From a gamma proteobacterium endosymbiont of Lamellibrachia anaximandri (GTDB lineage: Bacteria > Pseudomonadota > Gammaproteobacteria > Chromatiales > Chromatiaceae): a stretch of DNA of 64,000 nucleotides. Below the pieces are notes generated by a model, which was not told the origin of the DNA, searched no databases, and was given only the letters and a program-made list of their open reading frames with translations. Below, one piece after another: positions 41,019-61,968 of this stretch (positions are counted from its first letter, which is position 1; each line of letters opens with the position of its first letter). The stretch lies in NCBI GenBank assembly GCA_016756855.1, contig JAESPD010000014.1:1-64000 (forward strand). The letters run 5' to 3'. A program made the translations under genes and the position numbers.

Positions 41019-43067
41019 TCACCTGTCACCTCCCTTTAGCTCCCGCCGCATCTTCTCTATCAGATCCCGTCCCAAGGTGCCGAGTCCGCTGCCGTCCGGG
41101 TTCTGATGGCTTTCGATGTATTCGCGAATTTCGGCGAAACGTCTGGCGGCCTGTTCGTTGTCCTTGAGACGGGGCATGCGCTCTTTTGCGATACTGAAGG
41201 CGTCGAAGTCGAGGGCCTTCATATCGAACCCCTTCATGCGTCTGACTGCCCGCATCATGGCGCGGTTGCGGAAGCGGGTCAGGTCGTCGCTGGTAATCTC
41301 CTCAAGGCCTTCCCGGCGGGCAGCGAATTCAGCGGCCTTTTTGATGCCGGCACGGACGAATTCGGGGGCGGTTTTTACGCGTTCAAGCGCTTCAGGGCTC
41401 CATTTAACGCCTGCCATCAGGGTATCCAGCACCCTGACCACATCCTCGACGGCCACCCGTTGTGCGCGACGGCGTTTCACCTCCCGTTCCACAGCGGCCT
41501 CCATCGAGGGCTGGACGAAGAGGCTTACCTGGGGTCCGCGGTCGGAGAGGGCTATTTTCAGTAGATGTTCTGCCTCTTCATCCCAGGGGAAGGCGCGCCT
41601 GGGTTCGTCTTCATCCTCCAGACGTTGCAGGAGCTTCATGTTGACTTCCAGTCGGCCCTCGTTGCGCGCGACGTCTTCAGCTACCTGGCGGACGCCTTCC
41701 TGCAGGAAAGGGGGCATGGTGTCGAGATGGGTTTGCGCCTCAGCGGTCCAGGGCAGGGGAGGTGCATCGCTGATGGGTTGCGCTCCCGCCCTGGCGATGG
41801 AACTGACGCTGCCTGGTGGACGGGAGGGCATGCCGTTTTTGAAGCGATTTTTCGCCAAAGCCGCCATATGCTCTGGGGTGACCACAGTTTCTCCCAGTTT
41901 CCGCACATGGTCTTCAGCCCGCTTGCGTACCATCTTGCGCAGGAAGCCGGGGACACGCAAAAGACGCTTTTCCGCTTCGGACGACCAGGACACATCATCG
42001 GTTATTGCGGGGACCAGTGGCTGGATTACCGGCTTGCCCTGCGGCTGGTAGGAGCACCAGGGATCTGCGTCCATCAGGCTGCCGCCGAGGGCCCTGGGTC
42101 GTGCACGGCAGCCGGTGCAGAGCTGTTGGTATTCGCACTTGCCACACTTGCCGCCCAGGTTAGGATGGGTAAGCTGGGCGAAGGTGGGTGAGTTGTCCCA
42201 GATCTGCCAGAAAGGCGTCTCCCGGATAGTTCCCTCTTCATCGGCGATGTAGGGGCAGGCGGTGACGCCGCCCTCCGGGGTGATGCGGCAGTAGTGGATG
42301 CCCGCCAGGCAGCCGCCGCCCTCGTATCCCTGGGCCCGGGTCAAAGGGGATTCCGGGTCGATTTGATAGGCGATGCGCTTGTAGTGGGGGGCGCAGCGGG
42401 CGCGGATGATCAGGTCGTTGGTGGCGGCTTGGGCCTCTACCAGTTGTTTTAGCACGGCCTCGTAGCGTTGCGGGGTGATGTCGCTCATCGACTCGCCGCG
42501 ACCGGTGCAGACCAGGAAGAAGATGTTCAGCACATGGGCGCCGGTGGCCCGGCTGAAGTCGATCATGCCCTGGACTTCTTGGGCATTCTGCTCGGTGACC
42601 GAGAAGTGGACCTGGAACGGCAGATCGTTTTTGCGGCAGGCCTCCATACCAGCGAGGGTCTTCTCCCAACTGCCGGGGCAGCCACGGAAGGCATCGTGTT
42701 GGGCGGGGTCCAGGGAGTCCAGGCTGATGCCCATGCCCATCACTCCTGCTGCCTTAAGTTGCTGCACCCGGGACTCATTGAGCAGCACGCCGTTGGTGCC
42801 GACCACGATGGAGAGTCCCAGTGAACTGCCGTGGTTGACCAGTTCTTCCAAGTCACGACGCAACAGGGGTTCGCCGCCGGTGAGCACCACCATGGTCTCG
42901 CTGCTGCGGCTGGCGATCTCATCCAGCAGTCCTTTGACCTCGTTGGTGGTGAGTTCGTTTTGACCGCCGTTCTCCCGGGTGTCGGCGTCCATGTAGCAGT
43001 GGTTGCAGGCCAGATTACAGCGGCGGGTGAGATTGACTGCCAGAAGAAAAAGGTCGCGATCAGACAT
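41019..43067 (-). CDS. Radical SAM/SPASM-like protein with multiple C-terminal PCP_red-like repeats
   Basis: CNLACNHCY (CxxxCxxC) radical SAM motif, SPASM-like CGKCEYQQLCTGCRARP, then four W-x(3)-A-(x)n repeats such as VSWSSEAEKRLLRVPGFLRKMVRKRAEDHVRKLG. Start set at MSDRDLFLLAV. Confidence 0.85.
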   Translation of the reverse strand: MSDRDLFLLAVNLTRRCNLACNHCYMDADTRENGGQNELTTNEVKGLLDEIASRSSETMVVLTGGEPLLRRDLEELVNHGSSLGLSIVVGTNGVLLNESRVQQLKAAGVMGMGISLDSLDPAQHDAFRGCPGSWEKTLAGMEACRKNDLPFQVHFSVTEQNAQEVQGMIDFSRATGAHVLNIFFLVCTGRGESMSDITPQRYEAVLKQLVEAQAATNDLIIRARCAPHYKRIAYQIDPESPLTRAQGYEGGGCLAGIHYCRITPEGGVTACPYIADEEGTIRETPFWQIWDNSPTFAQLTHPNLGGKCGKCEYQQLCTGCRARPRALGGSLMDADPWCSYQPQGKPVIQPLVPAITDDVSWSSEAEKRLLRVPGFLRKMVRKRAEDHVRKLGETVVTPEHMAALAKNRFKNGMPSRPPGSVSSIARAGAQPISDAPPLPWTAEAQTHLDTMPPFLQEGVRQVAEDVARNEGRLEVNMKLLQRLEDEDEPRRAFPWDEEAEHLLKIALSDRGPQVSLFVQPSMEAAVEREVKRRRAQRVAVEDVVRVLDTLMAGVKWSPEALERVKTAPEFVRAGIKKAAEFAARREGLEEITSDDLTRFRNRAMMRAVRRMKGFDMKALDFDAFSIAKERMPRLKDNEQAARRFAEIREYIESHQNPDGSGLGTLGRDLIEKMRRELKGGDR

Positions 43068-43080
43068 AGAGGTCGCCTGG

Positions 43081-45652: not shown

Positions 45653-46384
45653 TTACTTGAAGGTGAAGTCCACGTTGGCGGTGCCGCCGGCGGCAACCTC
45701 AACCTTGGATTTCTGGTCCTTCAGGGTGCCGTGCCAGGCCTTGATGGTGTATTTGCCCGGGGGTACATTGTCGATGCTGAAAGTACCGTCCTCCGCTACC
45801 ATGGCGTAGTAGGGGTTCTTGGCGACAAAGACGAAACCATGCATGAAATCATGGGCGTCGCACTCCACCTTCATGGCAGACCCGCGTTTCAGCTTGACTG
45901 TTTTGGTGACGGTGTTGGGCTCGGGCTGACTGACGTTGAAGACAGTCTTCTTGGTGCGTCCGATGATCTCGTAGGTGTGGATATTATGTAGGATAGGATC
46001 CTGATTGACGGCTGCGATCTTGGTTTCGTTCTTCATTACCTGCAGGAAGGGCTTGAACTCACAACCTTTCTGATCCAGGATTGCACTGGAGATCGAGGCG
46101 TCGAAGGCCTTGCCTGTTTTGACCTTGTCCAGATAGACAACTGTGTCCATCAGTGAGCCATTGTTGACTCGAACATAGTCGATCTCGCGGGTGCCTGTGC
46201 CGCAGACATCATTGTCTTTGGAAATCTTGTAGGTTTTTGGCGCTTTGTCCTTGCCGGCAAAACTCACCTTGCCGGTGATGGTGCCGCCGTTGCTGACGGA
46301 GACCTCTTTGTATTTAGCGGCCTGTCCAGCGACAGGCAGGGCGCAGAGGCCGGCCAGACTGAGGGCGATGATCAACTTCTTCAT
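45653..46384 (-). CDS. Secreted cupredoxin-like/carboxypeptidase-regulatory-like protein
   Basis: Signal peptide; DPILHNIHTYE and VECDAHDFMHGFVFV resemble a cupredoxin His...Cys-His-Met arrangement; C-terminal GTFSIDNVPPGKYTIKAWH. Confidence 0.7.
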   Translation of the reverse strand: MKKLIIALSLAGLCALPVAGQAAKYKEVSVSNGGTITGKVSFAGKDKAPKTYKISKDNDVCGTGTREIDYVRVNNGSLMDTVVYLDKVKTGKAFDASISSAILDQKGCEFKPFLQVMKNETKIAAVNQDPILHNIHTYEIIGRTKKTVFNVSQPEPNTVTKTVKLKRGSAMKVECDAHDFMHGFVFVAKNPYYAMVAEDGTFSIDNVPPGKYTIKAWHGTLKDQKSKVEVAAGGTANVDFTFK

Positions 46385-46453: not shown

Positions 46454-48877
46454 TCAAGCCGCCTGTTGCGACCGGTCGTTGGAGGAAATAAACAGCTCTT
46501 CGAGCATCTCGATGACGAACCGGCGTTCAGCGCTTGAATCGACAGTGTCCAGTTGGCTGAGCAGCCTCTCGGCGCTACCTTGGATATCGATGGAACGCAG
46601 CAGTTTGCCGATATTCCGGGCCTGGGCGCCGGCACCGAGAAAACCTGTGTCGATCAACTGCTCGACTATCTCGGTTTTGGACTCGCCAAGTCCCTCAAGG
46701 TTCAGTAACTGAACGATGCCTTTGGCCGCAGCCATCCGTACATTGAATTCCCCATCCTCCAGAGCGCTGCTGAGTTTGCGCAGGATGGTTTTGGGTGAGA
46801 CGGGTTTGATCACCATGTGGCCGGCTATGTCGGGATCGTCACCGTTGATGCTCAATTCAACCAAAGCGGAGATGGTCTCGGTACGCAAGGTAGTCTGGGG
46901 GTCATTCAGGATGTCAAGTAGAGGCAGCATGGCTGCCTTGTTGTGCAGCAGGCCCAGTGCGCGGGCACAGGCCACCCTTTGGTCTTCGTCGCCTAGGCCC
47001 AGCTGGGTTGTCAGGGAGCCGAAGGCGTTCATCAGGCTCCGCAGTCCGGGATGCAGGCGTGCGGTTTCCGCGATGGCCAGTGCGGCTTCATAACGCAGTA
47101 CGCCATCATCCGCGTTGAGAGCCTGGATCAGTCCCTCCACTGAGGCATCGTCGGTATTGCCGATGAGTACGCGCACACCCAGGCGGCGGACGTCGTCTTC
47201 GATGCTGATCTTGCGCCGGCCGCGGGTCATCCGCTCGCCGACACGCTTGTTCTCTTCCACGACCTCAAGGAAATCCTCGATCTCCTGTTCGGTCTCGACC
47301 TCGGCCTCGGGTTCCGGCAGCGCCTCGTGGACTCCGAAGGCAATTTCCGCATTGTCCAGGGCGATGGCATCGAGGGTGGAGATTGCGGCATTCACTTCGC
47401 CAGGTTCCACAACGCGGCCAGGGGTCTCCGGCAGTACCAGGGATTCGCCTTCTGCCAACTCGGATCCCTGAGCCTCGGGTGTCTCGGTTGTGGTGTCTTC
47501 AGCTTTGCGCTGCTGCTCTTTTATCGGGGTGGGATCGAACTCCACGGCCTGACTGATCTTCTGTGGTGTTTCCTGGGATGAGAGTTCCAGTTCACCGGCG
47601 ATGGCGGCAAGTACGATATCGAGGGGACGCTGCAACGATTCTGCTGTCTCTTCCCCGGTCGCCGGGATGGCATCAAGTGCTGTCAAGGCGTCGAGCGCGG
47701 CAAGGCGTACCGGTTGTTCCCTGTCGGCAATCGCCTCCTTGAGCAGATCGATGGTGTCGGCGTTGAGTATGCCGATACGACCGATGGCAAGGGTGGCCTG
47801 TCGGCGAACCATGCCGTAAAGACCTTTGTTGCGCACTGTGGCAATGAGCACGTCCAGTGAAGCGGGGTCTCCATTGACACCCAAAAGATCGCAGGCAGAC
47901 GCCGCAGTGTCGTAGGTTTTGTCTGTGAGCGAGTCCGCCACCGCAGCGAGGCTCTCTTCATCCAGGGATCGGGGCGGGATCAAACTACTCAGTGTGGTGG
48001 CGACGATGGCACGTACCAGACTGCTGGGGTCGCTGAGCAGGGGAGTGATCTCGGCGATAATGTCGTTATCGGCAGAGCTGGATTCCGTCAGGCGGTTGCA
48101 GGCTTCTATGGACGCAGAGCGAACGTCGTCTTCAGGGTCGCGCAGCAGCAGGAGCAGAGCGGGCAGATAGCGATGGGCATCGATATCTGCCAAGGCTGTG
48201 GCAACGGCCGCACGGACTTCCGGTGATTCGTCGCGCAGGGCCTGCCCCAGGGGTTTGGTCACCTCGGGGTTACCTGAATGTCCCAGTGCCCGGGCGGCAC
48301 GGCGGCGTTGCATGATGGAGCCGTTCTCCAGCAGGTCGAGAAGCGCGGTGATGCCACTCACTTTGATATTGGCCAGGGCAGCGAAAATTTCCGGGTCGAT
48401 GTCCTGGGATATTTCATCCTCCATGATCTGCAGCAGGGTGCTGGTGGCATCCTCGACGCCGAATTTGCCCAGGGCCTCCACCGCAGCGAGTTGGATGTCC
48501 CACCATCTATCCCAATCGTCTTCCCATTCGATTCTTTCGGGGCGATCTACCGCAACCTTTTTCAGGATGGGTATCGCGTCATCGGTGCCGAGCTGGCCAA
48601 GTGCGATAGTCACTGCGGTACAGACTTCGCCGCTCTCTTCGTTCTCGAGGGATTTGATCAGTGCCGGTACGGCATGGGTGTCGCCGATTCTTCCCAATGC
48701 CTCGGCGGCATCCACACAGGCATCTATATCTTCATCCGTCAGTTGCTTGATCAGGGCCTCCACAGCACTTCTGCTGCCCAGGGTTCCCAGGGTGCGGGCG
48801 GCGTAGCAGCGGTCCGCCTCATCGCCTGTTTTAAGAAGGTCTGTCAGAGACTGTTCGGTCTTTTCTTTCATATTCAT
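46454..48877 (-). CDS. HEAT/PBS-lyase-like repeat protein
   Basis: About 800 aa of repeats such as AVEALIKQLTDEDIDACVDAAEALGRIGDTHAVPALIKSLE; start taken as MNMKEKTEQ. Confidence 0.88.
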   Translation of the reverse strand: MNMKEKTEQSLTDLLKTGDEADRCYAARTLGTLGSRSAVEALIKQLTDEDIDACVDAAEALGRIGDTHAVPALIKSLENEESGEVCTAVTIALGQLGTDDAIPILKKVAVDRPERIEWEDDWDRWWDIQLAAVEALGKFGVEDATSTLLQIMEDEISQDIDPEIFAALANIKVSGITALLDLLENGSIMQRRRAARALGHSGNPEVTKPLGQALRDESPEVRAAVATALADIDAHRYLPALLLLLRDPEDDVRSASIEACNRLTESSSADNDIIAEITPLLSDPSSLVRAIVATTLSSLIPPRSLDEESLAAVADSLTDKTYDTAASACDLLGVNGDPASLDVLIATVRNKGLYGMVRRQATLAIGRIGILNADTIDLLKEAIADREQPVRLAALDALTALDAIPATGEETAESLQRPLDIVLAAIAGELELSSQETPQKISQAVEFDPTPIKEQQRKAEDTTTETPEAQGSELAEGESLVLPETPGRVVEPGEVNAAISTLDAIALDNAEIAFGVHEALPEPEAEVETEQEIEDFLEVVEENKRVGERMTRGRRKISIEDDVRRLGVRVLIGNTDDASVEGLIQALNADDGVLRYEAALAIAETARLHPGLRSLMNAFGSLTTQLGLGDEDQRVACARALGLLHNKAAMLPLLDILNDPQTTLRTETISALVELSINGDDPDIAGHMVIKPVSPKTILRKLSSALEDGEFNVRMAAAKGIVQLLNLEGLGESKTEIVEQLIDTGFLGAGAQARNIGKLLRSIDIQGSAERLLSQLDTVDSSAERRFVIEMLEELFISSNDRSQQAA

Positions 48878-48913
48878 CAAATACCCGTCTGGGATGGAGA
48901 TCCCCCTATGCAA

Positions 48914-49773: not shown

Positions 49774-51681
49774 ATGAGGTCGAACAGACAACAATCGATA
49801 CGTCGAAGCGGTTTTTCAAACCGGCTTGGTTGGCTGCTGTCCCTGTTGGCAGTTCTGCTTGTATTTGGAGTAACCCCTGTTTTTGCGGATATGGGGATGG
49901 GTGGTGCCGACCAACGCATCGCACCGATCGGCCGGGTTCATATTGCAGGCCAGGATTTTGTTCCCGCAGCGGATAGTGCGGCCAGTGGGGCGGAAGCGCC
50001 GGAGCTGATCGCGGCGCCCCGGACGAGTCGCAAGGACTACCCGAATGTCGGCGTCAGCAGCCGGGCAGTGGTGTGGATTCTGGCCCAGTTACACCTCTTT
50101 TTCGGTGCCCTGGTGTTGGCGGTGCCCCTGTTTGTCCTGGTGATCGAACTGGTGGGGGTGACGAGCGGTGATGAGCGCTACGACAGCATGGCCCATGAGT
50201 TTATGAAGATCAGCCTCACCGGCTTCTCCATTACCGCCATCTTCGGTGGCTCTCTGGCGCTGGCGCTGTTTCTGCTCTATCCCGATTTCATGGGTTACAT
50301 GATGCACGTCTTCGGCGCTCAGTGGCTGGTCTATGCAGGACTGTTTTTTCTTGAGAGCTTCTTCCTCTATACCTACTATTATGGCTGGAACGCCATGCGC
50401 TACGGCAACCTGAAGTGGGTGCACCTGAGTCTTGGCCTGCTGCTCAATGGCGCGGGCATGACCATCATGGTGATCTCCAACTCCTGGGCCACCTTTATGA
50501 TGGCACCTTCAGGCGTCAATGAGGTCGGCGTGGTGGTGGGCAATATCTGGGAGGTGATGAAGGGACCGCTGTGGAACCCGATCAACCTGCATCGATTTAT
50601 TGCCAATATCGGTTTCGGCGGAGCCGTTGTCGGGGCCTATGCCGCATATAAATTCCTGAGCACAAAGGATATGGAGAAGCGGGCCCACTACGACTGGATG
50701 GGTTATACCTCCAACTTCATCGCCATCCTTGCCTTTCTTCCGTTGCCCTTCGCCGGATACTGGCTGATGGCGGAGATCTACGCCTACTCCCAGCAGATGG
50801 GTATCACCGCCATGGGCGGCATCCTGGCCTGGCTCTTCATCGTGCAGGCGGTGCTGATCGGCACCATCCTGCTGGCTGGCAACTACTACCTTTGGGCGGG
50901 TATGTCGCGCACCGAAGGTTCCAAACGCTACAAGCCTTTCATTGGTTTTATCGCTTTCGTACTGGTGGTTTGTTTCCTGACTTGGGTTACCCCCCACACC
51001 CTGATACTGTCTGCGTCGGAGATCGCGCAGCTGGGAGGCAGCCACCACCATATCCTCGGTCCCCTGGGCATCATGCCGGCGAAGAATATCGCCGTTAACC
51101 TGATGTTGATAGTGACCTTTCTCTCGTTCCAGCTCTATCGTCGTTCGGACAAGGTGGCGACCGTCTCCTGGGCGCCCATTGGCAACGCGCTGATGGTGGC
51201 GATCTATGTGGTGGCGATCGTCAACATCATTTTCCTCGGCGTCTACTATGGCTACTTCACCAATACGGTCTATAAGGTGGGTTCGTCGGTGGCCCAGGTG
51301 AGTTCGACGCTGGTAGTGATCATTGCGGGTATCGTTATCGATAGCCTGATGTTCAAAAATGCCAAGACCCTGCCTTCGCACTGGGGCAGGATCCCCGATC
51401 GAGCCCAGTACGCCCTGTTTGCCCTGCCGATTGCCTTTACCTGGCTGATGGGTCTGATGGGCTATGTGCGCTCTTCGGTGAAGACCCACTGGCATGTCTA
51501 TACGGTGATGAAGGATAACTCGCCGGACAATTTTATTCCCACTATTGGTTATGCGGGCAACATGATCACCATCGTGACCGTACTGTTCCTGTTGTTCGTG
51601 CTATTTATGTTCTGGGTCGCCAGCCTTAGTGGAACCAAACAAGCCAAACCGGAAACGGTGACTGAAGGAGGCGTGGCATGA
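49774..51681 (+). CDS. Divergent cytochrome bd-like (CydA-like) membrane protein with N-terminal signal/extension
   Basis: By-eye similarity to CydA: QLHLFFG, WLVYAGLFFLESFFLYTYYYGWNAM, VISNSWATFMMAPSG, NPINLHRFIANIGFGGAVVGAY. Confidence 0.75.
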   Translation: MRSNRQQSIRRSGFSNRLGWLLSLLAVLLVFGVTPVFADMGMGGADQRIAPIGRVHIAGQDFVPAADSAASGAEAPELIAAPRTSRKDYPNVGVSSRAVVWILAQLHLFFGALVLAVPLFVLVIELVGVTSGDERYDSMAHEFMKISLTGFSITAIFGGSLALALFLLYPDFMGYMMHVFGAQWLVYAGLFFLESFFLYTYYYGWNAMRYGNLKWVHLSLGLLLNGAGMTIMVISNSWATFMMAPSGVNEVGVVVGNIWEVMKGPLWNPINLHRFIANIGFGGAVVGAYAAYKFLSTKDMEKRAHYDWMGYTSNFIAILAFLPLPFAGYWLMAEIYAYSQQMGITAMGGILAWLFIVQAVLIGTILLAGNYYLWAGMSRTEGSKRYKPFIGFIAFVLVVCFLTWVTPHTLILSASEIAQLGGSHHHILGPLGIMPAKNIAVNLMLIVTFLSFQLYRRSDKVATVSWAPIGNALMVAIYVVAIVNIIFLGVYYGYFTNTVYKVGSSVAQVSSTLVVIIAGIVIDSLMFKNAKTLPSHWGRIPDRAQYALFALPIAFTWLMGLMGYVRSSVKTHWHVYTVMKDNSPDNFIPTIGYAGNMITIVTVLFLLFVLFMFWVASLSGTKQAKPETVTEGGVA

Positions 51682-52505
51682 CCGTCTTCTTCAAAACCAT
51701 TGGATTCAGTATCGGTCTGGCCCTGATCTTCACTCTGGTAACCCAGCTATTGCCTCAGGTGGAGGGCGAGGCGCCGGTGGAGACGAAGGTCGACCTGAGT
51801 TCCCTGACCATGGACGACTTTGTCGCCATGGGCGAAGACCTGTTTATGAACAAGGGTACCTGCACCCTCTGCCACAAGCCTCCCCCCATCGGACGTGCGC
51901 CGGATATCCAAGGTCTGGATATGGTGAGTACCTCCGCTGAACGATTGGCGGATGAACGCTATCGGGGCGAGTCGAAGGATGCGGCGGGCTATATCCTCGA
52001 ATCGATGATTGATCCGAGCAAGTTCGTAGTCGCCGGTTGGGGCAAAAAGGGCTCCAACGATACGGTGTCACCGATGCCCGCCGTCGACAAGGCACCGATT
52101 CAGCTCTCTGTCATGGAGATGGATGCGATCATCGCCTATCTGCAGGCGAAGGATGGTAACGAGGTGACCGTATCCCTGCCGTCACCTGAGGCAGCCGCAG
52201 AAGCTGCTGCTGCGGCACCGGCGGCCGGTGGTGCCGCAGCAGCATCAGCAGCCACTGCGGAGGAGGCACTGGGTAAATATGCCTGCAGCTCCTGTCATGC
52301 GATGGACTCTGAGGATCCATTGGTGGGACCGGGGCTGGCAACCGTGGGGGCGCGTCTGAGTGTGCCAGAGATTCGCCAGAGCATTGTTGATCCTGCCGCA
52401 GTGATTACGGAGGGCTTTCCTCCGGCGATGCCTGCTGACTTTGCGGAGAAGATGACGGTCAAAGAGCTGGAGATGCTGGTGCAGCATCTGGCGGAGAAAA
52501 AATAA
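51678..52505 (+). CDS. Di-haem membrane-anchored cytochrome c
   Basis: N-terminal TM; CTLCH and CSSCH haem motifs; overlaps the upstream gene by 4 bp. Confidence 0.88.
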   Translation: MTVFFKTIGFSIGLALIFTLVTQLLPQVEGEAPVETKVDLSSLTMDDFVAMGEDLFMNKGTCTLCHKPPPIGRAPDIQGLDMVSTSAERLADERYRGESKDAAGYILESMIDPSKFVVAGWGKKGSNDTVSPMPAVDKAPIQLSVMEMDAIIAYLQAKDGNEVTVSLPSPEAAAEAAAAAPAAGGAAAASAATAEEALGKYACSSCHAMDSEDPLVGPGLATVGARLSVPEIRQSIVDPAAVITEGFPPAMPADFAEKMTVKELEMLVQHLAEKK

Positions 52506-54913
52506 TGAAGAGCTTTAGGATTCCCGCTTTCCTGCAGGCGGTGCTGGTCATCGCGGCAGCCTATCTGGCGTTCAAGTTCGGTTTTCCGCCGCTGTTGCCG
52601 CAGACGCTGATGATCCAGTACATGATTATCGCCATCATTGGTGTGCTGCTCTATTTCTCTTTCGATGACGAGCGTTGGGCGGAGTTCCAGGCACCGGTTC
52701 TTGCCACCCTGCGCAACGACAACTTAGTGGTAGTGCGCTGGGCGTTTCTGATCATCATCCCGTTGATCGTTGGCTACACTGTTTATGGTATGGTGAAACC
52801 CTCCAGCGATGCTCCGGTGGAACCACGCCAAGTGCATCCGGCACCACCTGCCTCGGTCAAGGTCTTCGGCAAGAGTTTCGACTTGGCGACCCTTGAGAAT
52901 CCCATCCGTGAGGAGATTCTTGAGACCCTCGCCGGGGAGAAAGAGGCAGGCTGGGAAAAATATCAGACCGCAGTCAGCGCTGGCCGCGACGTCTACTATC
53001 AGAACTGCTTCTATTGCCATGGCGACCTGCTGGACGGCCAGGGTCACTATGGAACCGGATTCAACCCGCAGCCGATCAACTTCCAGGACCCGACTATCAT
53101 CCCGCAGTTGCAGGAGTCGTTCCTTTTCTGGCGCATCACTACGGGTGGCCCCGGCCTGCCGAAGGAGGGTAGGCCTTGGAATTCAGCCATGCCGGTGTGG
53201 CATGAGATGTTGAGCGAGCAGGATGTGTGGAACGTCATCACCTTCATCTTCGACTATAACGGCCAGGTGCCGCGGATCTGGGATCCGGAGATCTCCCGGG
53301 TCGTGACCGGCATGAAAGACGAGGTGCAGGCCGAACGCAGGGAGATCAAGGGCCAGGATCTCTATAAGTTCCGTTGTGAGGTCTGCCATGGAGAGCAGGG
53401 TGCCGGAGACGGCGTGGCGGCGGAGTTGATGTATCCCAAGCCGCGGGATTTCACCCTGGCTCTGTTCAAATACAAGACCTCTCCCGGCACTCTGTTGCCG
53501 CTGGATGATGACCTGTTCAATACCATCAAAAACGGCCTGACAGGAACAGGCATGCCGGGTTGGGCATCGCTGATGAGTGATGAGCAGATTCGCAGCCTGA
53601 TTCCGGTAATCAAGGGTTTCGATATCACCGCCGCCTGGGCGCCGGATGATGCGGAAGACGAGTCCTTCGATGATGATGGTCACTATATCAAGACAGATTT
53701 TCGACAGGTCGCCGAAGTTGAGCCGGAGGAGGGTCAGATCCCCTATTCTGAGGAGTCGGTGGCCAAAGGGCGCGACGCATTTCTCAAATCCTGCAAGGAG
53801 TGCCACGGCGAAGCGGGCAGGGGCAATATCGTCTCCGGCAAGAAACTGGAGGACGATTGGGGTTTCCGCATCTGGCCGCGGGATCTGACCAAGCCCTGGA
53901 CCTGGCGCGCCACTCAGTCCACTGATTCTGCCGAGAAGGAGCGGGATGCCACCGTCAAGGCGATCTATACCCGTCTCTCCATCGGTATTCCCGGTACGCC
54001 GATGCCGGCTCACCGCGCAGTGGAGGAGGGCAACAAGGATCCAGTCAGTCTGGAGGATCGCTGGCATATCTCCAACTTCGTCTACAGTCTGCGTGATACA
54101 GCGGTGCAGCCCAAAGATGGTGCTGTGGTAACCGGCACCAAGGTAAGTGGCGGAGTGCCGACCTCGCTGGATGATGAGCGTTGGAATGGCGCGGACGCGG
54201 TTACCCTGAGTCTGGTGCCCAACATCATCAAGGAAGAGCGCCTGTTCACGCCGCTTAATGATGCAGTGACCGTGCGCGCCATCTATAACGAGAAGGAGAT
54301 CGCCTTTCTGCTCGAAGTGGATGACCGCACCGAAAGCCGTCCCGGTATCGAATACTTTACCGATCTGCAGGACGAGAACAAGGAGATGCACGCCGATGCG
54401 GTGGCGATCCAGTTCCCCATGGAGGCCGCTTATATGTCGTCACCGATGGTGGAGAAGCCCCTTTATCGACATGGCGACAAGCGTCACCACACCACCATCT
54501 GGTACTGGAATGCGGGCAGTGTCGAGCCCAAACGTGATGCCGGTGCTGTGCTGATGGAAGGTGTCGGCCCGAACAAACGTCCAAAGCTGCGTGAGTCGGA
54601 CGGTACCTTTAGCGCGGGCGGTGAGTGGAAAGACGGTAAGTGGCGTGTCATCATGACGCGTCCGCGCAGTGGCGGTGCGATTGGCGATATCGACTTTGTT
54701 GAGGGTCAGTTCATGCCTATCTCTTTCGCCAACTGGGACGGCAGTAATGGCGAGGTGGGATCCAAACACACTTTGAGTCCCTGGTACTGGCTCTTCCTGC
54801 CGCCGGAGTTCGACTATCAGCGGGTCTATGGGCTTCCTGCGGGCATTGCCCTGTTGGTTTTCCTTGCTGGCCTTATGTTGGTAAGGTCGGAACAGAAAAA
54901 GGTGAAAGGCTAA
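52505..54913 (+). CDS. Tri-haem cytochrome c with C-terminal ethylbenzene dehydrogenase-like haem-binding domain
   Basis: CFYCH, CEVCH, CKECH motifs; C-terminal DERWNGADAVTLSLVPN...EKEIAFLLEVDD...HADAVAIQFP; terminal TM helix. Confidence 0.82.
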   Translation: MKSFRIPAFLQAVLVIAAAYLAFKFGFPPLLPQTLMIQYMIIAIIGVLLYFSFDDERWAEFQAPVLATLRNDNLVVVRWAFLIIIPLIVGYTVYGMVKPSSDAPVEPRQVHPAPPASVKVFGKSFDLATLENPIREEILETLAGEKEAGWEKYQTAVSAGRDVYYQNCFYCHGDLLDGQGHYGTGFNPQPINFQDPTIIPQLQESFLFWRITTGGPGLPKEGRPWNSAMPVWHEMLSEQDVWNVITFIFDYNGQVPRIWDPEISRVVTGMKDEVQAERREIKGQDLYKFRCEVCHGEQGAGDGVAAELMYPKPRDFTLALFKYKTSPGTLLPLDDDLFNTIKNGLTGTGMPGWASLMSDEQIRSLIPVIKGFDITAAWAPDDAEDESFDDDGHYIKTDFRQVAEVEPEEGQIPYSEESVAKGRDAFLKSCKECHGEAGRGNIVSGKKLEDDWGFRIWPRDLTKPWTWRATQSTDSAEKERDATVKAIYTRLSIGIPGTPMPAHRAVEEGNKDPVSLEDRWHISNFVYSLRDTAVQPKDGAVVTGTKVSGGVPTSLDDERWNGADAVTLSLVPNIIKEERLFTPLNDAVTVRAIYNEKEIAFLLEVDDRTESRPGIEYFTDLQDENKEMHADAVAIQFPMEAAYMSSPMVEKPLYRHGDKRHHTTIWYWNAGSVEPKRDAGAVLMEGVGPNKRPKLRESDGTFSAGGEWKDGKWRVIMTRPRSGGAIGDIDFVEGQFMPISFANWDGSNGEVGSKHTLSPWYWLFLPPEFDYQRVYGLPAGIALLVFLAGLMLVRSEQKKVKG

Positions 54914-54928: not shown

Positions 54929-54980
54929 GCGGTGATCCTATTTCTCCTCATATTTGTGCATTCGCGGGAGTGATTTTTTT

Positions 54981-55580
54981 ATGATTCAACGGTTGGTCTC
55001 CATCTTTCTCTTTCTCATGTTTCTTCCCATTGTGGCTCAGGCCGGGGGGGAGGCGCCGCGTGAGGATGAGGTTCTGGATCAGAGCGGTGCCCCGGCTGGC
55101 GGCGATTTCACCCTCAATTCTGCTGCTGGGCCGGTCTCAACCAGTGATCTCCGGGGCAAGGTCATACTGCTCTATTTCGGTTACACCAAGTGTCCGGATG
55201 TCTGTCCCACTTCACTCTCCATGGCAACCCAGGCCCTGAACGAATTGAGTGGAAAAGAGTTGAAATCATTGACATCGATCTTTGTCAGTGTCGACCCCCA
55301 ACGCGATACGGTGGAGCAGCTGAAAGAGTACGTGGAGTACTTCCATGAGAGCTTTATCGGGGTAACCGGCAGTGAGGAGAAGGTAGCCGAGGTAGCTAAG
55401 ATGTATGGGGCTCAGTATTACCAGGTGGAACTGGAAGGTTCGGCTTTTGGGTATTCGGTGAATCACTCCGCCGCAACCTACCTGATAGCGCCGGACGGAC
55501 AGTTACGTTTTATCTTTCCCCACGAGACGCCGCCGCAAGTGATGCTTGAAGGAATACGCTATCTGATGGCTGGTAACTGA
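54981..55580 (+). CDS. SCO1/SenC family copper chaperone-like protein
   Basis: YFGYTKCPDVCPTSLSMA copper-binding CxxxC, conserved His in VNHSAATYLIAPDG. Confidence 0.92.
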   Translation: MIQRLVSIFLFLMFLPIVAQAGGEAPREDEVLDQSGAPAGGDFTLNSAAGPVSTSDLRGKVILLYFGYTKCPDVCPTSLSMATQALNELSGKELKSLTSIFVSVDPQRDTVEQLKEYVEYFHESFIGVTGSEEKVAEVAKMYGAQYYQVELEGSAFGYSVNHSAATYLIAPDGQLRFIFPHETPPQVMLEGIRYLMAGN

Positions 55581-55833: not shown

Positions 55834-56074
55834 GTTAGGGAATTCTCCGCTGAACACCATGATCCTATCCACCCATTTGCGCGGATTATTGAAAAGTTAC
55901 TTAATAATAACGTAACAAATTGAATTATTAGAAAAATATTGAATTTTTTGAGTGGTTTTGTTGGGCAGAAACTTTTCTCATGTGGGTAGTGTTTCTCTTG
56001 AACAATTTGATCGAAGTGAGGTTGGCAATGCTGCTTTGGTAGAACAATTCATTCAGGATGCCCCAGAAAACAAA

Positions 56075-56088
56075 TTGACGTGAATCAA
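56075..56088 (+). promoter_or_regulatory. Candidate FNR/Anr/Dnr box
   Basis: TTGAC-GTGA-ATCAA, one mismatch to TTGAT-N4-ATCAA. Confidence 0.5.
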
Positions 56089-56141: not shown

Positions 56142-56157
56142 TGGCCTGAAAAATGCA
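56142..56157 (+). promoter_or_regulatory. Candidate sigma-54 promoter for the Idr-like operon
   Basis: TGGCCTG-AAAA-ATGCA; correct GG/GC spacing; shares TGGCCTG with the promoter at 49350. Confidence 0.55.
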
Positions 56158-56260: not shown

Positions 56261-57367
56261 ATGGGTGTACGAGTCAAAACCGGACATACTCTTCTGGCGG
56301 CAACGCTGGGGCTGGGTATGGCTTTCGGTGCGCAAGCCGGCAAGTATCCCGACATCACGTCTTTGCCTGATCTGAAGATCAATGTGGCCAAGGCGGAGTT
56401 GGGAAAACGACTTTTTTTCGATCGTCGTATCTCGGGCGATGCGGGCATAGCCTGCTCAGATTGCCACAAACCTGAAAACGGCTATGCGCATCCCGATGCG
56501 CTGTCCCCGGGTTATCCCGGCAACGGGCATTTTCGCAACAGCCCCAGCGTGGTAAACGCTGCGCACAAAAAAGTCTGGATGCATGACGGTCGTCTGGGCA
56601 CCAACCTTAATGACGTAACCCGTGAAATGCTCACGGAAGATTACATCATGAACATGGACATGCGGGTCATGCAGGAGCGTGCGAAACAGGATCCAAAATA
56701 TGTTCAGATGTTCAAGGATGCCGGATTTGGCGAACCATCCAACGGTTCGATACGTAAGGCTATCCCGGAATACCTGAAGACCCTGACCTCCGAGAATGCC
56801 CCCATCGATACCGGCAAGATGTCTGCCTCCGCCAAGCGTGGTCAGAAGCTCTTCAAAGGTAAGGCCGGATGCATCCAGTGCCACAACGGCCCGCTTGCCA
56901 CTGATGGCAAGGCATACAATACCGGCGTACCGGAGAACTTCGATATTTTCCTTGATCCCATGAACCATCACGCCTTCATCGCCTTTGCAATGTTTCAGGG
57001 TATCGAAGACTACATGAACCTGAAGCGCGACCCTGGTTATTACAATATAACCATGGATGCGGCTGATACGGGCAAGTTCGTGACCCCGAGCCTGCGTGAA
57101 CTGAAGTACAGCGCACCCTACATGCACAACGGCATGATCAAGAGTCTTTACGACGTGGTTGGCTTCTACAACAGGGGTGGTGGTAAGGACAGCCGTAAGG
57201 ACTCCCGTCTCAAACCTTTGAAGTTGGGCAAACAGGATATCAAAGACCTGGTTGCCTTCCTCGAGTCGATGTCGGGTGATCCTCTGACCAGCGGTAAGCA
57301 CGTCTGGAAAGATCCCTATCCTGCTGAGTATCCGGTTATCGAAAACTGGACTCAGGTCAAGAACTAA
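56261..57367 (+). CDS. idrP2: Di-haem cytochrome c peroxidase (IdrP-like)
   Basis: MauG/CCP-family protein with signal peptide; CSDCH and CIQCH haem motifs; P1/P2 designation is arbitrary. Confidence 0.75.
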   Translation: MGVRVKTGHTLLAATLGLGMAFGAQAGKYPDITSLPDLKINVAKAELGKRLFFDRRISGDAGIACSDCHKPENGYAHPDALSPGYPGNGHFRNSPSVVNAAHKKVWMHDGRLGTNLNDVTREMLTEDYIMNMDMRVMQERAKQDPKYVQMFKDAGFGEPSNGSIRKAIPEYLKTLTSENAPIDTGKMSASAKRGQKLFKGKAGCIQCHNGPLATDGKAYNTGVPENFDIFLDPMNHHAFIAFAMFQGIEDYMNLKRDPGYYNITMDAADTGKFVTPSLRELKYSAPYMHNGMIKSLYDVVGFYNRGGGKDSRKDSRLKPLKLGKQDIKDLVAFLESMSGDPLTSGKHVWKDPYPAEYPVIENWTQVKN

Positions 57368-57384
57368 ACGTCGAGGAGACAGCG

Positions 57385-58623
57385 ATGAGTAATGTAATAC
57401 AGACTCCGACCCTGTTGGCCGCTGCCATCACGACGGCACTGCTGGCAGGTTGTGCTGGCCAGGCGACTTCGGAATCCACTGCTGCACCTGCAGCGGAAAA
57501 ATCGATGGCTGCAGCACCTATGGCGATGGCCGGTCCTGCGCCTCTGGCGCCTCTTGGAGAACCGCCAATTCCGCCGGATAATCTGCAGAGTGCTGCAAAA
57601 ATCGAACTGGGAAAGATCCTCTTTTTTGATCCCCGTTTGGGCGGTGATGCTTCCACCGGTTGCTCCACCTGCCATGAGCCGGATCAGGGCTGGGCTTGGG
57701 CCGAGGACTTCTCCCGTGGTTATCCCGGTACCGTCCACTGGCGTAACAGTCAGACCATTATCAACAGTGCCTATTTCCCCCGCCAGTTCTGGGCAGGTTC
57801 CGCCTCCTCGAACGAGTCACAGGCAAGGGGTGCCGCGAGAGGTGGTGTGGCCGGTAACGGCGAGGCCGATATCATGGAGGCGCGGCTCAGGGTGATTCCT
57901 GAATATGTAGAGCGTTTCCGTGAAGCATTCGGTACCGAATGGCCAATCGTTCGGGATGCATGGCGTGCAATCGCCTCGTTTGAACGTACCCTGGTACAGC
58001 GTGATACACCCCTGGACAAGTATCTCCTGGGTGATAAGAGCGCGCTGGACGCGGATCAGCTCAAGGGTAAGGAACTCTTCGAAGGCAAGGCGGGTTGCAT
58101 CCAGTGCCACAACGGCGCTATCACCTCTGACCAGGACTTCCATAACATTGGTATCCCACCGAACAAGCGTTGGGAAGAGGATGGATTGGCACAGATCACC
58201 TTCCGTTTCGAGCAGTATGCGAAGGGGCAGACCCAAGAGGGTTACCGTAAGGCCAAATCCGATTGGGGCTTCTACTACCGTTCCAAGAATGCATGGGACA
58301 AGGGTAAGTTTCGTACCGCCCCGCTGCGTTACCTGAAATACACCGCACCCTATATGCACAACGGTGTCTTCTACACCCTGGAAGAGGTGGTTGATTTCTA
58401 CGACCGTGGTGGTTTCGACGAAGATGGCCGAACCACAATGTTCACAGAGAACAAGAGTTCGCTTATCAAGCCTCTTGGTTTGACCGACGACGAGAAGGAC
58501 GCCTTGGTAGCGTTCCTCGAATCCATGTCCGGCGAAGAGATGCTGATGGATAAACCTGAGATGCCTGAATACGCACCGCTGTTTACCCTGGCAGAGCTTG
58601 AAGCGGCACAGGAGGCAAAATAA
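57385..58623 (+). CDS. idrP1: Di-haem cytochrome c peroxidase, lipoprotein-like (IdrP-like)
   Basis: Lipobox-like LLAGC; CSTCH and CIQCH haem motifs; P1/P2 designation is arbitrary. Confidence 0.75.
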   Translation: MSNVIQTPTLLAAAITTALLAGCAGQATSESTAAPAAEKSMAAAPMAMAGPAPLAPLGEPPIPPDNLQSAAKIELGKILFFDPRLGGDASTGCSTCHEPDQGWAWAEDFSRGYPGTVHWRNSQTIINSAYFPRQFWAGSASSNESQARGAARGGVAGNGEADIMEARLRVIPEYVERFREAFGTEWPIVRDAWRAIASFERTLVQRDTPLDKYLLGDKSALDADQLKGKELFEGKAGCIQCHNGAITSDQDFHNIGIPPNKRWEEDGLAQITFRFEQYAKGQTQEGYRKAKSDWGFYYRSKNAWDKGKFRTAPLRYLKYTAPYMHNGVFYTLEEVVDFYDRGGFDEDGRTTMFTENKSSLIKPLGLTDDEKDALVAFLESMSGEEMLMDKPEMPEYAPLFTLAELEAAQEAK

Positions 58624-59192
58624 TGTCTGATATCAAGAAAAAAGACGAGACTGCAGCAGATCACGGTAAGTGCATGCTCAATCGTCGTCAGTTCCTGATG
58701 TACAGTGGATCCGCGGCTGCCGCGGCCAGCACTGTTTCGATCAGTCTGTTCCCAGGCCAGGCCGCTGCAAAGGCCCGCGTCGTGGGTTATCCCCGTAAGA
58801 AGATTGGCCAGCTCAGCGCCCTTAAGGACAATCAGCCGGTGAACTTCACTTATCCTGATGACGGTGCTATCAACATGCTGGTCAAGATGGGCGGTGTGAA
58901 GGCCGGAGGCGGTGTTGGTGATCAGCGTGACGTGGTGGCCTTCAGCTACCTCTGCACCCACCAGGGCGGCAACATGATCGGCAAGTACCAGGCGGTGGGC
59001 AACCATCGTGTACTGGGCCAGTGCCCGCTGCATCTCTCGACCTATGATCTGACGCGTCACGGCATCATCGTTTCCGGACAGGCATACCAGAGCGTGCCTC
59101 AGGTCCTGCTGGAAGTTGATGGCGACGATATCTATGCCGTGGGCATGATGGGCCTGATCTTTGGCCGTAACGAAAACTTGCTGGAATCCTGA
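58623..59192 (+). CDS. idrB: Tat-targeted Rieske small subunit of AioB/IdrB type
   Basis: Tat motif NRRQFLM; Rieske ligands CTHQGG...CPLHLSTYD; start codon overlaps the upstream stop. Confidence 0.8.
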   Translation: MSDIKKKDETAADHGKCMLNRRQFLMYSGSAAAAASTVSISLFPGQAAAKARVVGYPRKKIGQLSALKDNQPVNFTYPDDGAINMLVKMGGVKAGGGVGDQRDVVAFSYLCTHQGGNMIGKYQAVGNHRVLGQCPLHLSTYDLTRHGIIVSGQAYQSVPQVLLEVDGDDIYAVGMMGLIFGRNENLLES

Positions 59193-59207
59193 GGAGGAGA
59201 ATAGACA

Positions 59208-61910
59208 ATGGCAACTAAATATTACCTCCCTGAGGACCATGCACCGCTACCACCGAAAAATGCGGACGTGAAGACCACCTGCTGCGACTACTGCATCGTC
59301 GCTTGCGGATACAAGGTCTATCGTTGGCCGGTAGGTACCCCGGACGGCGGTCCGAAGGCATCTGAGAATGCCTTCAATACCGACTTTCCGTCCGGTCCGC
59401 TACAGGCTTGGGTGGCACCCACTCAGCACAACGTGGTGATGCACGACGGGCGTCCTCACAACGTGGTTATCATCCCGGATAAGGATGCCAAGGTCGTCAA
59501 TATCGGCGGTGACTCCTCCATCCGTGGTGGCTGTATTGCGCAGAAGTGCTACAACCCCAACAAACCGACCAACGACCGTCTGACCTCGCCCCTGGTGCGG
59601 ATCAACGGTACCCTGCAGCCGGTGAGCTGGGACTTCGCCCTCGATATCGCGGCCAATGTGGGTAACCATGTTCTCAAAGAGCATGGCGCCAACGCATACA
59701 GTGTGAAGACTTTCTCTTATCAGTTCTTCGAGAACACCTATGCGGTGAAGAAGTTTGCCCGCCGTTCCATCAAGACAGCGGCTTTCACCTTCCACGACAC
59801 ACCTTCCGATGTGACCTCCACTCCCGGTTTCCGGGACGCGGGTTTCGACAACTTCGGTCCGGCCTATAAGGACTGGGGAGATGCAGAGGTTCTGGTGATC
59901 TGCGGTACCGACCCGTATGAAACCAAGACCATGATCTTCACCCAGTTCATCAAGCCCGCTATCGACCGCGGTCAAAAGACGATCTGGTTGAACGTGCGCG
60001 AGACCGCTGGTCTGGCTTATGCCAAGAGCAAGGGTGACGATCAAACTATCCATCTGCAGATCAATCCCGGCACCGATACCCCGGTACTCGGCGCCATCTC
60101 CCGTATCATTCTGGAGAATGGTTGGGAAGATAAGGACTGGATCAAGCACTGGGTCAACGACAAGTGGGGTTCCAGCTCCGGTTTTGGCCAGGGTACCCGT
60201 AATACACCATGGCAGTGGCGTACCACTTGGGGCAAGTTCCAGACGAATGGTGTTTACGGCAAAAAGGGCTACAAGGCCTGGGTTATGTCCCGCAAGGAGC
60301 ATGAGCCCGAGGTGGCAGCCAAGATCGCCGGCGTCGACGTAAACGACCTCTATAAGGCCGCCAAGTGGCTGACTGGTGGTGGTGGTGATCGTCCCAAGGC
60401 ATCATTCGGTATCGAGAAGGGCTTCTACTGGTCGAACAATACCGGTAACACCAACGCCATATCCTCTCTGGCAACTATTTGCGGTGCAGGTGGTCGTCCA
60501 GGTCAGATGGTTGGCCGCTTCGGTGGTCATCAGCGTGGTGGCGCGGGCGGTGGTAGCTATCCCCGTAACCGCTCACCTGAGAAGGTGCCGGGTCGTCGTC
60601 GTCGTTCCCTGGATACGGATCGTTGGCTCTATTCAGGCCACACTCGCATGGCGCATGTCATCGGTACTACCTGGATCCAGGCGATGGCCGGTGCAAACGG
60701 CCTGCACAACAAGTTTGAGGAGTTGACGACCAATAATCCAAACCAGGTTACCTCCTGGGATAAGGATGAGATCATCAAGACCCTCAAGGCGCGTGCCGAT
60801 TCCGGTGGTACCGTGGTGATCAATCAGGATATCTACCTGCGTGATCCTATCGGTGCGCGTTTTGCAGATATCGTCTTCCCTGCCTCCACTTGGGGTGAAG
60901 AGGATTTTGCCCGCGCCAACGGTGAGCGTCGCATCCGCCTCTATCAGAAGTTCTACGATGCGCCCGGTGACGCCAAGCCTGACTGGTGGATCATCTCCCG
61001 GCTGGCCCAGAAGATGGGCTTCAAAGGTTATGATTGGAATGATTCCAACCAGGTTTGCGAAGAGTCTTCACGCTCCAGCCGTGGTAACCGCAAGGCCTAC
61101 CATATGATAAAGATCGCTGCCCACAAAGAGGGCAAGACCTTGCATCAGAAGTTGGCTGAACTCGGTACCGAGGGTATCCAGGGTCCGACCTTCTACAACT
61201 ACGACACTGGCGAGCTGCTCGGTACGGAGCGTCTGCATAATACCCAGTGCACGCAGGAGAAGCTGGTGAAGGAAGGCCGCACCAAGGGTGCCAACATGAT
61301 CAACAAGAAGGGAACGCATTTCAATTCCCAGACCGGTCGTGTGAACATCCAGAAGCACCCCTGGAGCCTCTATGCCGACTACTGGGAGTGGATGAGCCCG
61401 AAAGACGATGAGTTGTGGCACACCAACGGCCGCATCAACGAGATCTGGCAGTCTGGTTTCGATGATATCGAGCGTCGTGCCTACATCACTCAGCGTTGGC
61501 CTGAGAACTTCACTGAGATACATCCGGATGATGCCGCTTCCCGCGGTATCGAGTCGGGTGACCGGGTGATGCTCTTCTCCAACCGGGTGCCGGTGCACAA
61601 GAACACCATCAAGGGTGTTCACGGCAAAGACTTCCAGTTCTCCGAGCTGATGAAGAACGGCCATATCGCACTGGAGAAGGGTGCTACCACCGCTATCGCC
61701 ATCGTAACCCCAGCGGTGAAGAAGGGTACGCTGTACTCCTACTTCATCACAGAGAAGCAGGCATCCAATGCACTGCAGGGCCGCGTGGTGGATAACATCA
61801 GTGGTAACTACAACTACAAGCTCGGTGTGTGCAAGATCCAGAATCTTGGGCCGTCCGAGTATAAGAAGGAGTTCCGCAGCATGTCTTTCGCACCGAGAAA
61901 CATTGTCTGA
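59208..61910 (+). CDS. idrA: Molybdopterin oxidoreductase large subunit of AioA/IdrA family (iodate reductase-like)
   Basis: CDYCIVACGYKVYRWPV (CxxCxxxC), RLTSPLVRINGTLQPVSWDFALD, GRFGGHQRGG, no own signal peptide; partnered with Rieske and two di-haem peroxidases. Confidence 0.78.
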   Translation: MATKYYLPEDHAPLPPKNADVKTTCCDYCIVACGYKVYRWPVGTPDGGPKASENAFNTDFPSGPLQAWVAPTQHNVVMHDGRPHNVVIIPDKDAKVVNIGGDSSIRGGCIAQKCYNPNKPTNDRLTSPLVRINGTLQPVSWDFALDIAANVGNHVLKEHGANAYSVKTFSYQFFENTYAVKKFARRSIKTAAFTFHDTPSDVTSTPGFRDAGFDNFGPAYKDWGDAEVLVICGTDPYETKTMIFTQFIKPAIDRGQKTIWLNVRETAGLAYAKSKGDDQTIHLQINPGTDTPVLGAISRIILENGWEDKDWIKHWVNDKWGSSSGFGQGTRNTPWQWRTTWGKFQTNGVYGKKGYKAWVMSRKEHEPEVAAKIAGVDVNDLYKAAKWLTGGGGDRPKASFGIEKGFYWSNNTGNTNAISSLATICGAGGRPGQMVGRFGGHQRGGAGGGSYPRNRSPEKVPGRRRRSLDTDRWLYSGHTRMAHVIGTTWIQAMAGANGLHNKFEELTTNNPNQVTSWDKDEIIKTLKARADSGGTVVINQDIYLRDPIGARFADIVFPASTWGEEDFARANGERRIRLYQKFYDAPGDAKPDWWIISRLAQKMGFKGYDWNDSNQVCEESSRSSRGNRKAYHMIKIAAHKEGKTLHQKLAELGTEGIQGPTFYNYDTGELLGTERLHNTQCTQEKLVKEGRTKGANMINKKGTHFNSQTGRVNIQKHPWSLYADYWEWMSPKDDELWHTNGRINEIWQSGFDDIERRAYITQRWPENFTEIHPDDAASRGIESGDRVMLFSNRVPVHKNTIKGVHGKDFQFSELMKNGHIALEKGATTAIAIVTPAVKKGTLYSYFITEKQASNALQGRVVDNISGNYNYKLGVCKIQNLGPSEYKKEFRSMSFAPRNIV

Positions 61911-61938: not shown

Positions 61939-61968
61939 AAAGCGGGGCTTCGGCCCCGCTTTTTTTTG
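61939..61968 (+). terminator. Rho-independent terminator of the Idr-like operon
   Basis: aagcggggcttcggccccgctttttttt. Confidence 0.9.

Follow-up and report, generated by a model that had tools for sequence, protein, structure and literature searches.

The idr operon

The DNA analysed here comprises positions 1 to 64,000 of contig JAESPD010000014.1 (assembly GCA_016756855.1), from a gammaproteobacterial endosymbiont of Lamellibrachia anaximandri, and is called the window below. On its forward strand, at 56261-61910, lie four genes that probably encode a dissimilatory iodate reductase (Idr), in the order idrP1, idrP2, idrB and idrA. The initial annotation described the region as four tight co-directional genes encoding two di-haem proteins of the cytochrome c peroxidase (CCP)/MauG type, a Rieske protein directed to the twin-arginine translocation (Tat) pathway, and an AioA-family molybdopterin enzyme with no signal peptide of its own; that description stands in full. 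Open reading frames (ORFs) were found at exactly that span, all four co-directional, with gaps of 17, -1 and 15 nt for P1/P2, P2/B and B/A, respectively. A 680-nt intergenic region precedes idrP1, and a hairpin resembling an intrinsic terminator (61939..61962, + strand) closes the operon.

Each of the first two genes matches the CCP_MauG profile. The idrP1-like gene (56261..57367, +) encodes a di-haem c protein of 368 aa with two CxxCH motifs, a Sec-type signal, and Tyr303 at the position of the six-coordinate haem ligand. The idrP2-like gene (57385..58623, +) encodes a second such protein of 412 aa, again with two CxxCH motifs, having Tyr339 at the ligand position and Ala156 replacing the catalytic Glu. 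At its start (57385-57460) a lipobox-like LLAGC suggests a lipoprotein; a simple pattern finds one in 3 of 92 homologues. The idrB-like Rieske subunit (58623..59192, +; 189 aa) has a Tat signal with the twin-arginine sequence NRRQFL and a Rieske motif CTH-x20-CPLH, and scores 113.8 bits against TIGR02694 (cut-off 95.65). The idrA-like catalytic molybdopterin subunit (59208..61910, +; 900 aa) scores 383.8 bits against TIGR02693 (cut-off 359.05). It lacks a signal peptide, and its [3Fe-4S] motif, C26-C29-C33-S104, conforms to the CX2CX3CX70S arrangement described for the IdrA of Azoarcus DN11 (PMC10149662). A Tat signal on IdrB and none on IdrA agrees with the published Idr pattern. The Rieske spacer of 20 differs from the 18 of the IdrB criterion CXHX18CX2H; among the sampled loci it is 20 in 27 and 18 in 68, and in AioB it is 13-15. 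IdrA of this type is present as a single copy in the genome, which also carries moaA and tatC.

The content and order P1-P2-B-A are kept in nearly all of 61 non-redundant related loci with sufficient flank, and chance is thereby excluded. This order is the signature of idr (PMC8692401, PMC8801600), and the operon also follows the published cluster rule, by which two di-haem CCP-like genes precede idrBA (PMC8801600).

The large subunit belongs to the Idr clade

Both subunits carry the NCBIfam name arsenate reductase (azurin), and RefSeq applies it to the Idr of Azonexus as well, so that TIGR02693 and TIGR02694 do not separate Idr from Aio, the arsenite oxidase. GTDB genomes were scanned for IdrA-type patterns, the scan being centred on an intermediate sequence, and the best 80 of 417 relatives were used. 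The trees took in AioA and more distant molybdoenzymes, while two divergent Aio-like sequences (L113 and L114) were omitted from the IQ-TREE analysis. The verified IdrA proteins (Denitromonas IR-12, Pseudomonas SCT, Azoarcus DN11 and Roseovarius azorensis) were represented by proxies from Azonexus, Thiothrix and genome G058, chosen by matching gene neighbourhood.

With FastTree the window IdrA falls inside the Idr clade with a support of 100 and AioA stands apart, L113 and L114 being outside both groups. IQ-TREE under LG+C20 gives Shimodaira-Hasegawa-like approximate likelihood ratio (SH-aLRT) values of 99 for the Idr clade and 98 for the Aio clade. With proxies standing for verified IdrA, both trees place the large subunit outside the AioA clade. 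The assignment to Idr rather than Aio in the initial annotation is thus upheld by the tree, by the changed arsenite-site residues described below and by the order of the genes.

The window large subunit is ~30% identical to AioA. Its own subclade is mostly marine, comprising its family, Vibrionales, Oceanospirillaceae, SAR324 and many Alphaproteobacteria (64-70% identity), with the proteins of Ruegeria, Pelagibius and Pseudovibrio at 65-67%. Azonexus, Thiothrix and G058 form the other Idr branch, at 47-49%. The Azonexus locus, which lies in the same Idr clade as the window, has a histidine kinase, a sigma-54 regulator, a c-type cytochrome and moaA, which is the accessory set of verified iodate reducers (PMC8801600). 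Sedimenticola thiotaurini has already been recorded as an idr carrier (PMC8692401).

The substrate site of IdrA

Eight residues surround the molybdenum and the substrate funnel in the AioA of NT-26, namely D169, H199, R201, E207, K413, R447, H451 and E453 (PMC10448176). Four of these are kept, H199, K413, R447 and H451 being H196, K404, R437 and H441 in the window. The other four are changed (D169S, R201T, E207S and E453R), and arginine occupies position 453 in 96 of 97 Idr sequences. Two acids of the funnel are thus replaced, one of them by arginine, from which we infer that the site would favour an anion over neutral arsenite as substrate. In the second sphere the window clade has T198 and S204 where the proxies of verified type have K and D, so that substrate preference may differ between the subclades.

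IdrP1 and IdrP2

In published models IdrP1 and IdrP2 are cytochrome c peroxidases that clear H2O2 (PMC8692401, PMC10149662). Our family alignments show that the Met ligand of the six-coordinate haem of CCP is replaced by Tyr in 73 of 74 IdrP1 and in all 92 IdrP2 sequences. MauG and BthA also have a tyrosine here (PMC6405878), and, as judged by alignment alone, the Tyr-His ligation of the six-coordinate haem seen in MauG, MbnH and BthA is predicted. The residues of the peroxidase pocket were located through the CCP pattern Q-x3-P-x5-E. This Gln/Pro/Glu pocket is common to CCP, MauG and BthA, and it is not kept in IdrP1 or IdrP2. In IdrP2 the equivalent of CCP Pro108 is Ala in 92 of 92 sequences and that of Glu114 is Ala or Ser, again in 92 of 92. 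In the window IdrP1 the three residues are replaced by Val, Met123 and Ile129, at positions that vary in the family and where the alignment is less certain. A change of Glu to Gln abolishes the peroxidase activity of BthA (PMC6405878). As both the acid-base Glu and the Pro are missing from the two proteins, a simple role as H2O2 peroxidases appears doubtful. The two CCP-like proteins are present as first annotated; the handling of peroxide suggested for them is weakened, since both are without the acid-base Glu of the superfamily peroxidases.

Overall, IdrP1 and IdrP2 resemble the MauG/MbnH/BthA/CCP superfamily in having two c haems, and MauG, BthA and the MauG-like structure 6e1c in the Tyr at the six-coordinate haem; they differ from CCP in the replacement of P108 and E114, and in having Tyr instead of the His71-type residue. 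An AlphaFold model of IdrP1, with a predicted local distance difference test (pLDDT) value of 68, finds 6e1c and di-haem CCPs as its nearest structures; it is of low confidence in the pocket loop 104-133, and was therefore not used in the argument on the pocket. Reduction of hypoiodous acid is proposed as an alternative role. Chlorite dismutase, considered as a partner for hypoiodous acid, was ruled out, as it was not found in the genome.

The operon is one end of a 15-gene locus

How far does the unit extend? The idr operon forms one end of a locus of ~27 kb and ~15 genes (35027-61910). Next to it on the forward strand is a membrane cytochrome module: a cytochrome bd subunit I-like (cydA-like) membrane protein with no CydB nearby (49774..51681, +), a membrane-anchored di-haem c cytochrome (51678..52505, +), a membrane tri-haem c protein with a C-terminal EB_dh (type II haem-b subunit-like) domain (52505..54913, +) and, at its end, a SCO1/SenC copper-chaperone-like protein (54954..55580, +). 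The remaining genes lie on the reverse strand. They encode a HEAT/PBS-lyase-repeat protein, the commonest idr neighbour (46454..48913, -); an exported protein (CpepReg) with a carboxypeptidase-regulatory-like domain and a cupredoxin-like His / Cys-x2-His-x2-Met stretch (45653..46384, -); a protein with universal stress protein (Usp) domains and four PCP_red domains (43081..45369, -); a NirJ2/AhbD-like radical SAM-SPASM protein with three PCP_red domains (41019..43130, -); a protoporphyrinogen-oxidase-like (PPO) flavoprotein (39375..40790, -; TIGR00562, 232 bits, cut-off 97.85); a sensor histidine kinase with sensor, PAS and HisKA domains (36433..39048, -); and a sigma-54-dependent response regulator (35027..36514, -). 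This regulator is 54-60% identical to the idr-adjacent regulators of Vibrionales and Oceanospirillaceae, its best paralogue in its own genome being at 42%. Tandem PCP_red domains, as in the adjacent proteins at 41019-45369, are otherwise known from protochlorophyllide reductase subunit B. These proteins, the PPO-like gene and the NirJ2/AhbD-like domain form a possible haem-modification set.

Every window gene was compared with the ORFs on either side of idr in 61 loci from other families. Almost all genes from 35027 on had homologues there. Such homologues were found for the HEAT protein in 32 loci, the histidine kinase in 19, CpepReg in 17, the sigma-54 regulator in 16, the cydA-like protein in 13, the tri-haem/EB_dh protein in 11, the di-haem cytochrome in 9, the radical SAM/PCP_red protein likewise in 9, the Usp/PCP_red protein in 6 and the PPO-like protein in 4. 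By contrast, none of 25 control ORFs (236 to 35023) had a homologue in the flanks of any of the 61 loci. The HEAT and two-component proteins come from large families, so that single matches are weak and it is their recurrence beside idr that constitutes the evidence. The same families were recovered by de novo clustering of the flanks, where the window was not used as a query.

The recurrence extends, in varied order and orientation, over Alpha-, Beta- and Gammaproteobacteria, SAR324, Planctomycetota, KSB1 and metagenome-assembled genomes (MAGs) labelled Deltaproteobacteria. The full order is present in another genus of the window's family (G013). In two alphaproteobacterial loci (L049 and L059) the set of the window is rearranged as cydA-cytc-cytcEB-P1-P2-B-A-HEAT-CpepReg-Usp-rSAM-PPO (rSAM being the radical SAM gene), and most of it is held by a groundwater betaproteobacterial MAG on a different Idr branch (L035) and by G058 on the verified-type branch. 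In a congener of the endosymbiont (G001) everything from HEAT through idr is absent, the breakpoint corresponding to window position 46546, and the left half is kept. CpepReg is there broken into three ORFs, and a run of N lies within the PPO region (L170, G001:C1:1396000-1415900); ORFs past the breakpoint resemble CRISPR-Cas proteins in appearance. The unit of function probably extends well beyond the four genes. Linkage of idr to HEAT, cytochrome bd, quinol or sigma-54 genes is not described in the texts on iodate respiration that were searched, although published neighbourhood figures may show it.

The membrane cytochrome module

Co-occurrence was examined in 143 relatives, 21 with idr and 122 without. 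The cydA-like gene is present in 19 of the 21 and in 3 of the 122 (p=1.5e-18); for the radical SAM gene the counts are 19 and 4, respectively (p=8e-18). Neither value is corrected for shared ancestry. One exception, G006, is an 83% complete genome whose contig stops ~560 bp past SCO1, where idr would start. The cydA-like protein matches Pfam Cyt_bd_oxida_I with 73 bits, and the best Foldseek matches of its predicted model (pLDDT 73) are all bd subunit I (E ~4e-7), at low template modelling (TM) scores of 0.31-0.52. The two c-type cytochromes contribute five haem motifs in total, together with the EB_dh domain.

The known idr cluster is without a quinone oxidoreductase (PMC8692401), and perchlorate reduction has one (PMC10746228). 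The simplest proposal is that the module is the electron-entry part for IdrAB, though the sequence does not decide the direction of flow. In a genome of a related gammaproteobacterial family, which lacks idrA (G101; L157/L166, G101:C18:546000-575900), the PPO, radical SAM, Usp/PCP_red and CpepReg genes and the cydA module flank an NxrA/NxrB-type cluster, whose alpha subunit scores 1527 bits to NxrA 7b04. The same module beside NxrA points to a partner of oxyanion molybdoenzymes in general, not of Idr alone. The CydA-only proteins OR-N and OR-C of nitrite oxidisers share with it a CydA-like fold, c-type cytochrome partners and the lack of CydB; the gene in the window differs in being linked to idr and to the tri-haem/EB_dh protein.

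The upstream region

Alignment of 14 loci of the family reveals three elements conserved ahead of the ribosome-binding site. The block GAACRA-N3-ATTCA (56041..56055, +) is a possible activator site. It is followed by an FNR/Anr-type box, TTGACGTGAATCAA (56075..56088, +), which alone in the 64 kb matches TTGAYNNNNATCAA exactly, and by a sigma-54-like -24/-12 element, TGGCCTGAAAAATGCA (56142..56157, +), of the form TTGG-N10-TGCA. Of the 14 family loci, 13 have an FNR-like site (at least 9/10 match) 178-208 nt ahead of idrP1; over all loci, such a site lies within 350 nt upstream in 32 of 87, against 1.4% in shuffles. In Roseovarius azorensis idr is induced under static, low-oxygen conditions and by iodate (PMC11445184), which fits sites of the FNR type. 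The sigma-54-like element is also kept in the nearest Gammaproteobacteria. Across loci this site shows no significant association with a nearby sigma-54 regulator (4/16 versus 6/39, p=0.45), and the case for a sigma-54 link therefore depends on conservation within the window's family and among the nearest Gammaproteobacteria alone. Further upstream, the spacer between SCO1 and idrP1 contains an imperfect inverted repeat with the look of a repetitive extragenic palindromic element, CACGAAGAACACGAAGA / TCTTCGTGTCCTTTGTG (55737-55804).

Discussion

Placement in the Idr clade, taken together with the replacements at the AioA site, makes iodate reductase the best reading of this enzyme. With a probability that we put at about 0.72, idrP1P2BA is here a genuine operon for a periplasmic molybdenum iodate reductase of the mainly marine Idr subclade, and forms the catalytic end of the conserved ~27-kb 15-gene locus. 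A mechanism can be suggested on this basis. The operon would be transcribed at low oxygen, by way of the FNR box, with the histidine kinase and sigma-54 regulator of the locus providing a signal. IdrB would carry folded IdrA into the periplasm by the Tat route, and electrons would pass from the quinone or cytochrome c pool to IdrB/IdrA, probably via the linked cydA-like, di-haem and tri-haem/EB_dh proteins. Iodate would then be reduced towards hypoiodous acid and iodide, and IdrP1 and IdrP2, MauG/MbnH-like rather than ordinary peroxidases, would act on a reactive by-product or intermediate. What the analysis shows directly is the gene content, the clade, the residues, the linkage, the co-occurrence and the promoter motifs; the substrate, the electron path, the regulation and the part played by IdrP1 and IdrP2 are inferred from these.

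The closest known system is the IdrABP1P2 cluster of Pseudomonas SCT, Denitromonas IR-12, Azoarcus DN11 and Aromatoleum TC-10, with which the operon shares gene content, the P1-P2-B-A order, the [3Fe-4S] motif, a Rieske motif (of different spacing), a Tat signal confined to IdrB and an Idr-clade large subunit. It differs in being ~48% identical to the proxies of that clade, in having T198/S204 for K/D and a Rieske spacer of 20 rather than 18, and in its large linked accessory set, with neither a cytochrome c nor moaA directly downstream. The idr clusters of Roseovarius azorensis and other aerobic Alphaproteobacteria from the sea (PMC11445184) probably belong to the same marine subclade, judged from sampled relatives, and several have FNR-like sites; they differ in that the HEAT gene is usually directly downstream of idrA and the cydA module is found in some only. 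AioAB of NT-26 and Alcaligenes faecalis has in common the fold family, the pairing of a molybdenum subunit with a Rieske protein, and the equivalents of H199, K413, R447 and H451. Unlike it, the window enzyme lies in a separate clade, with four substrate-site residues replaced and two extra di-haem proteins.

Several points weigh against our reading. The family assignment is weakest in its use of proxies for verified IdrA; identity to these proxies of the freshwater verified clade is only 47-49%, and the two differ at T198/S204 versus K/D. The accessory module is not universal, the cydA-like gene being found beside idr at 13 of the 61 loci, where many flanks are truncated, nor is it specific to iodate, given the nitrite oxidoreductase partner in G101. 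The co-occurrence statistics moreover ignore shared ancestry.

A bolder version, which we hold only tentatively and consider somewhat unlikely, is that all 15 genes are dedicated to iodate respiration. The module would be Idr's own electron entry, reused elsewhere with a periplasmic nitrite oxidoreductase. IdrP1 and IdrP2, rather than being H2O2 peroxidases, would turn hypoiodous acid into iodide; enzymes would then account for all six electrons of the route, and abiotic disproportionation would have no part in it. It is rather unlikely that the enzyme is an Idr-clade reductase for some other oxyanion or oxidant, such as bromate, chlorate or selenate, with iodate incidental. Sediment hosts meet several oxyanions, the subclades differ at second-sphere positions 198 and 204, and a related accessory set serves NxrA in G101; yet three idr-bearing marine alphaproteobacteria reduce iodate, one inducing idrA at 0.1 uM iodate (PMC11445184), and the sampled marine alphaproteobacterial sequences are closely related to the gammaproteobacterial group of the window. 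The linked genes could be hitchhikers of a self-sufficient operon, brought by common inheritance or a shared integration site. The surroundings of idrABP1P2 have been called poorly conserved (PMC8692401), and the cydA-like module is missing within 10 kb of many sampled idr loci. This too seems quite unlikely, for homologues recur beside idr across phyla in differing order and orientation, including the verified-type G058 locus, while the 25 control ORFs score zero; and the congener G001 is without HEAT, the cydA module and idr together, its leftover CpepReg being broken.

That the module is a cytochrome c-linked terminal oxidase fed by the molybdenum enzyme, working oxidatively on an unknown donor, is very unlikely: the surroundings of the arsenite site are changed, FNR-type sites indicate expression at low oxygen, and the potential of iodide is too high for it to reduce the cytochrome c pool. 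Moreover, iodate induces related idr clusters (PMC11445184). Such an oxidase would nevertheless be in keeping with the oxidative direction of the related Aio enzymes, with the pairing of the module with NxrA in G101, and with the oxidase role proposed for bd-like proteins in Nitrospira and for the OR-N CydA of Nitrospinota, which would receive its electrons from cytochrome c (PMC8115632, PMC10839748). An arsenite oxidase, finally, is extremely improbable, and we reject it on the tree and the residues. The name arsenate reductase (azurin) would favour it, but is applied equally to Azonexus Idr; the large subunit lies outside the AioA clade with strong support and at ~30% identity, residues D169, R201, E207 and E453 are replaced, the Rieske spacer is 20 against 13-15 in AioB, and two di-haem genes are present that are missing from the aio clusters examined.

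By reducing iodate, microbes influence iodide in the sea and, through it, the chemistry of ozone. The stated gaps are two: the route of electrons to IdrAB, given that the known cluster lacks a quinone oxidoreductase (PMC8692401), and the role of IdrP1 and IdrP2. For the former the recurrent membrane cytochrome module provides a concrete candidate; on the latter, the lost pocket residues in both families present a testable challenge to peroxide detoxification. The extended locus also offers more markers for metagenome surveys than idrA alone. Relative to the published texts searched, the recurrent 15-gene locus, the hypothesis of a dedicated module and the lost peroxidase pocket are new; the operon itself adds one more member to a family already known.

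Variant idr loci

Several related loci depart from the usual arrangement. In L019 (G003:C13:48273-50970) idrA is split between two frames near residue 515, and in a 40% complete genome (G019:C40) it has internal stops; frameshift, decay or assembly error could account for either. A MAG labelled Deltaproteobacteria (L044) has the order P2-B-A-P1, with idrP1 now downstream of idrA. A deep Idr subclade (L058, L063 and L067) has SCO1-like genes downstream, together with an extra P2-like gene in L058. In Vibrio sp. THAF190c (L025), idrP1P2BA is carried on pTHAF190c_a, a 1.7-Mb replicon recorded as a plasmid; no accessory gene was detected within 8 kb of idr there, and its IdrA is 66% identical to that of the window.

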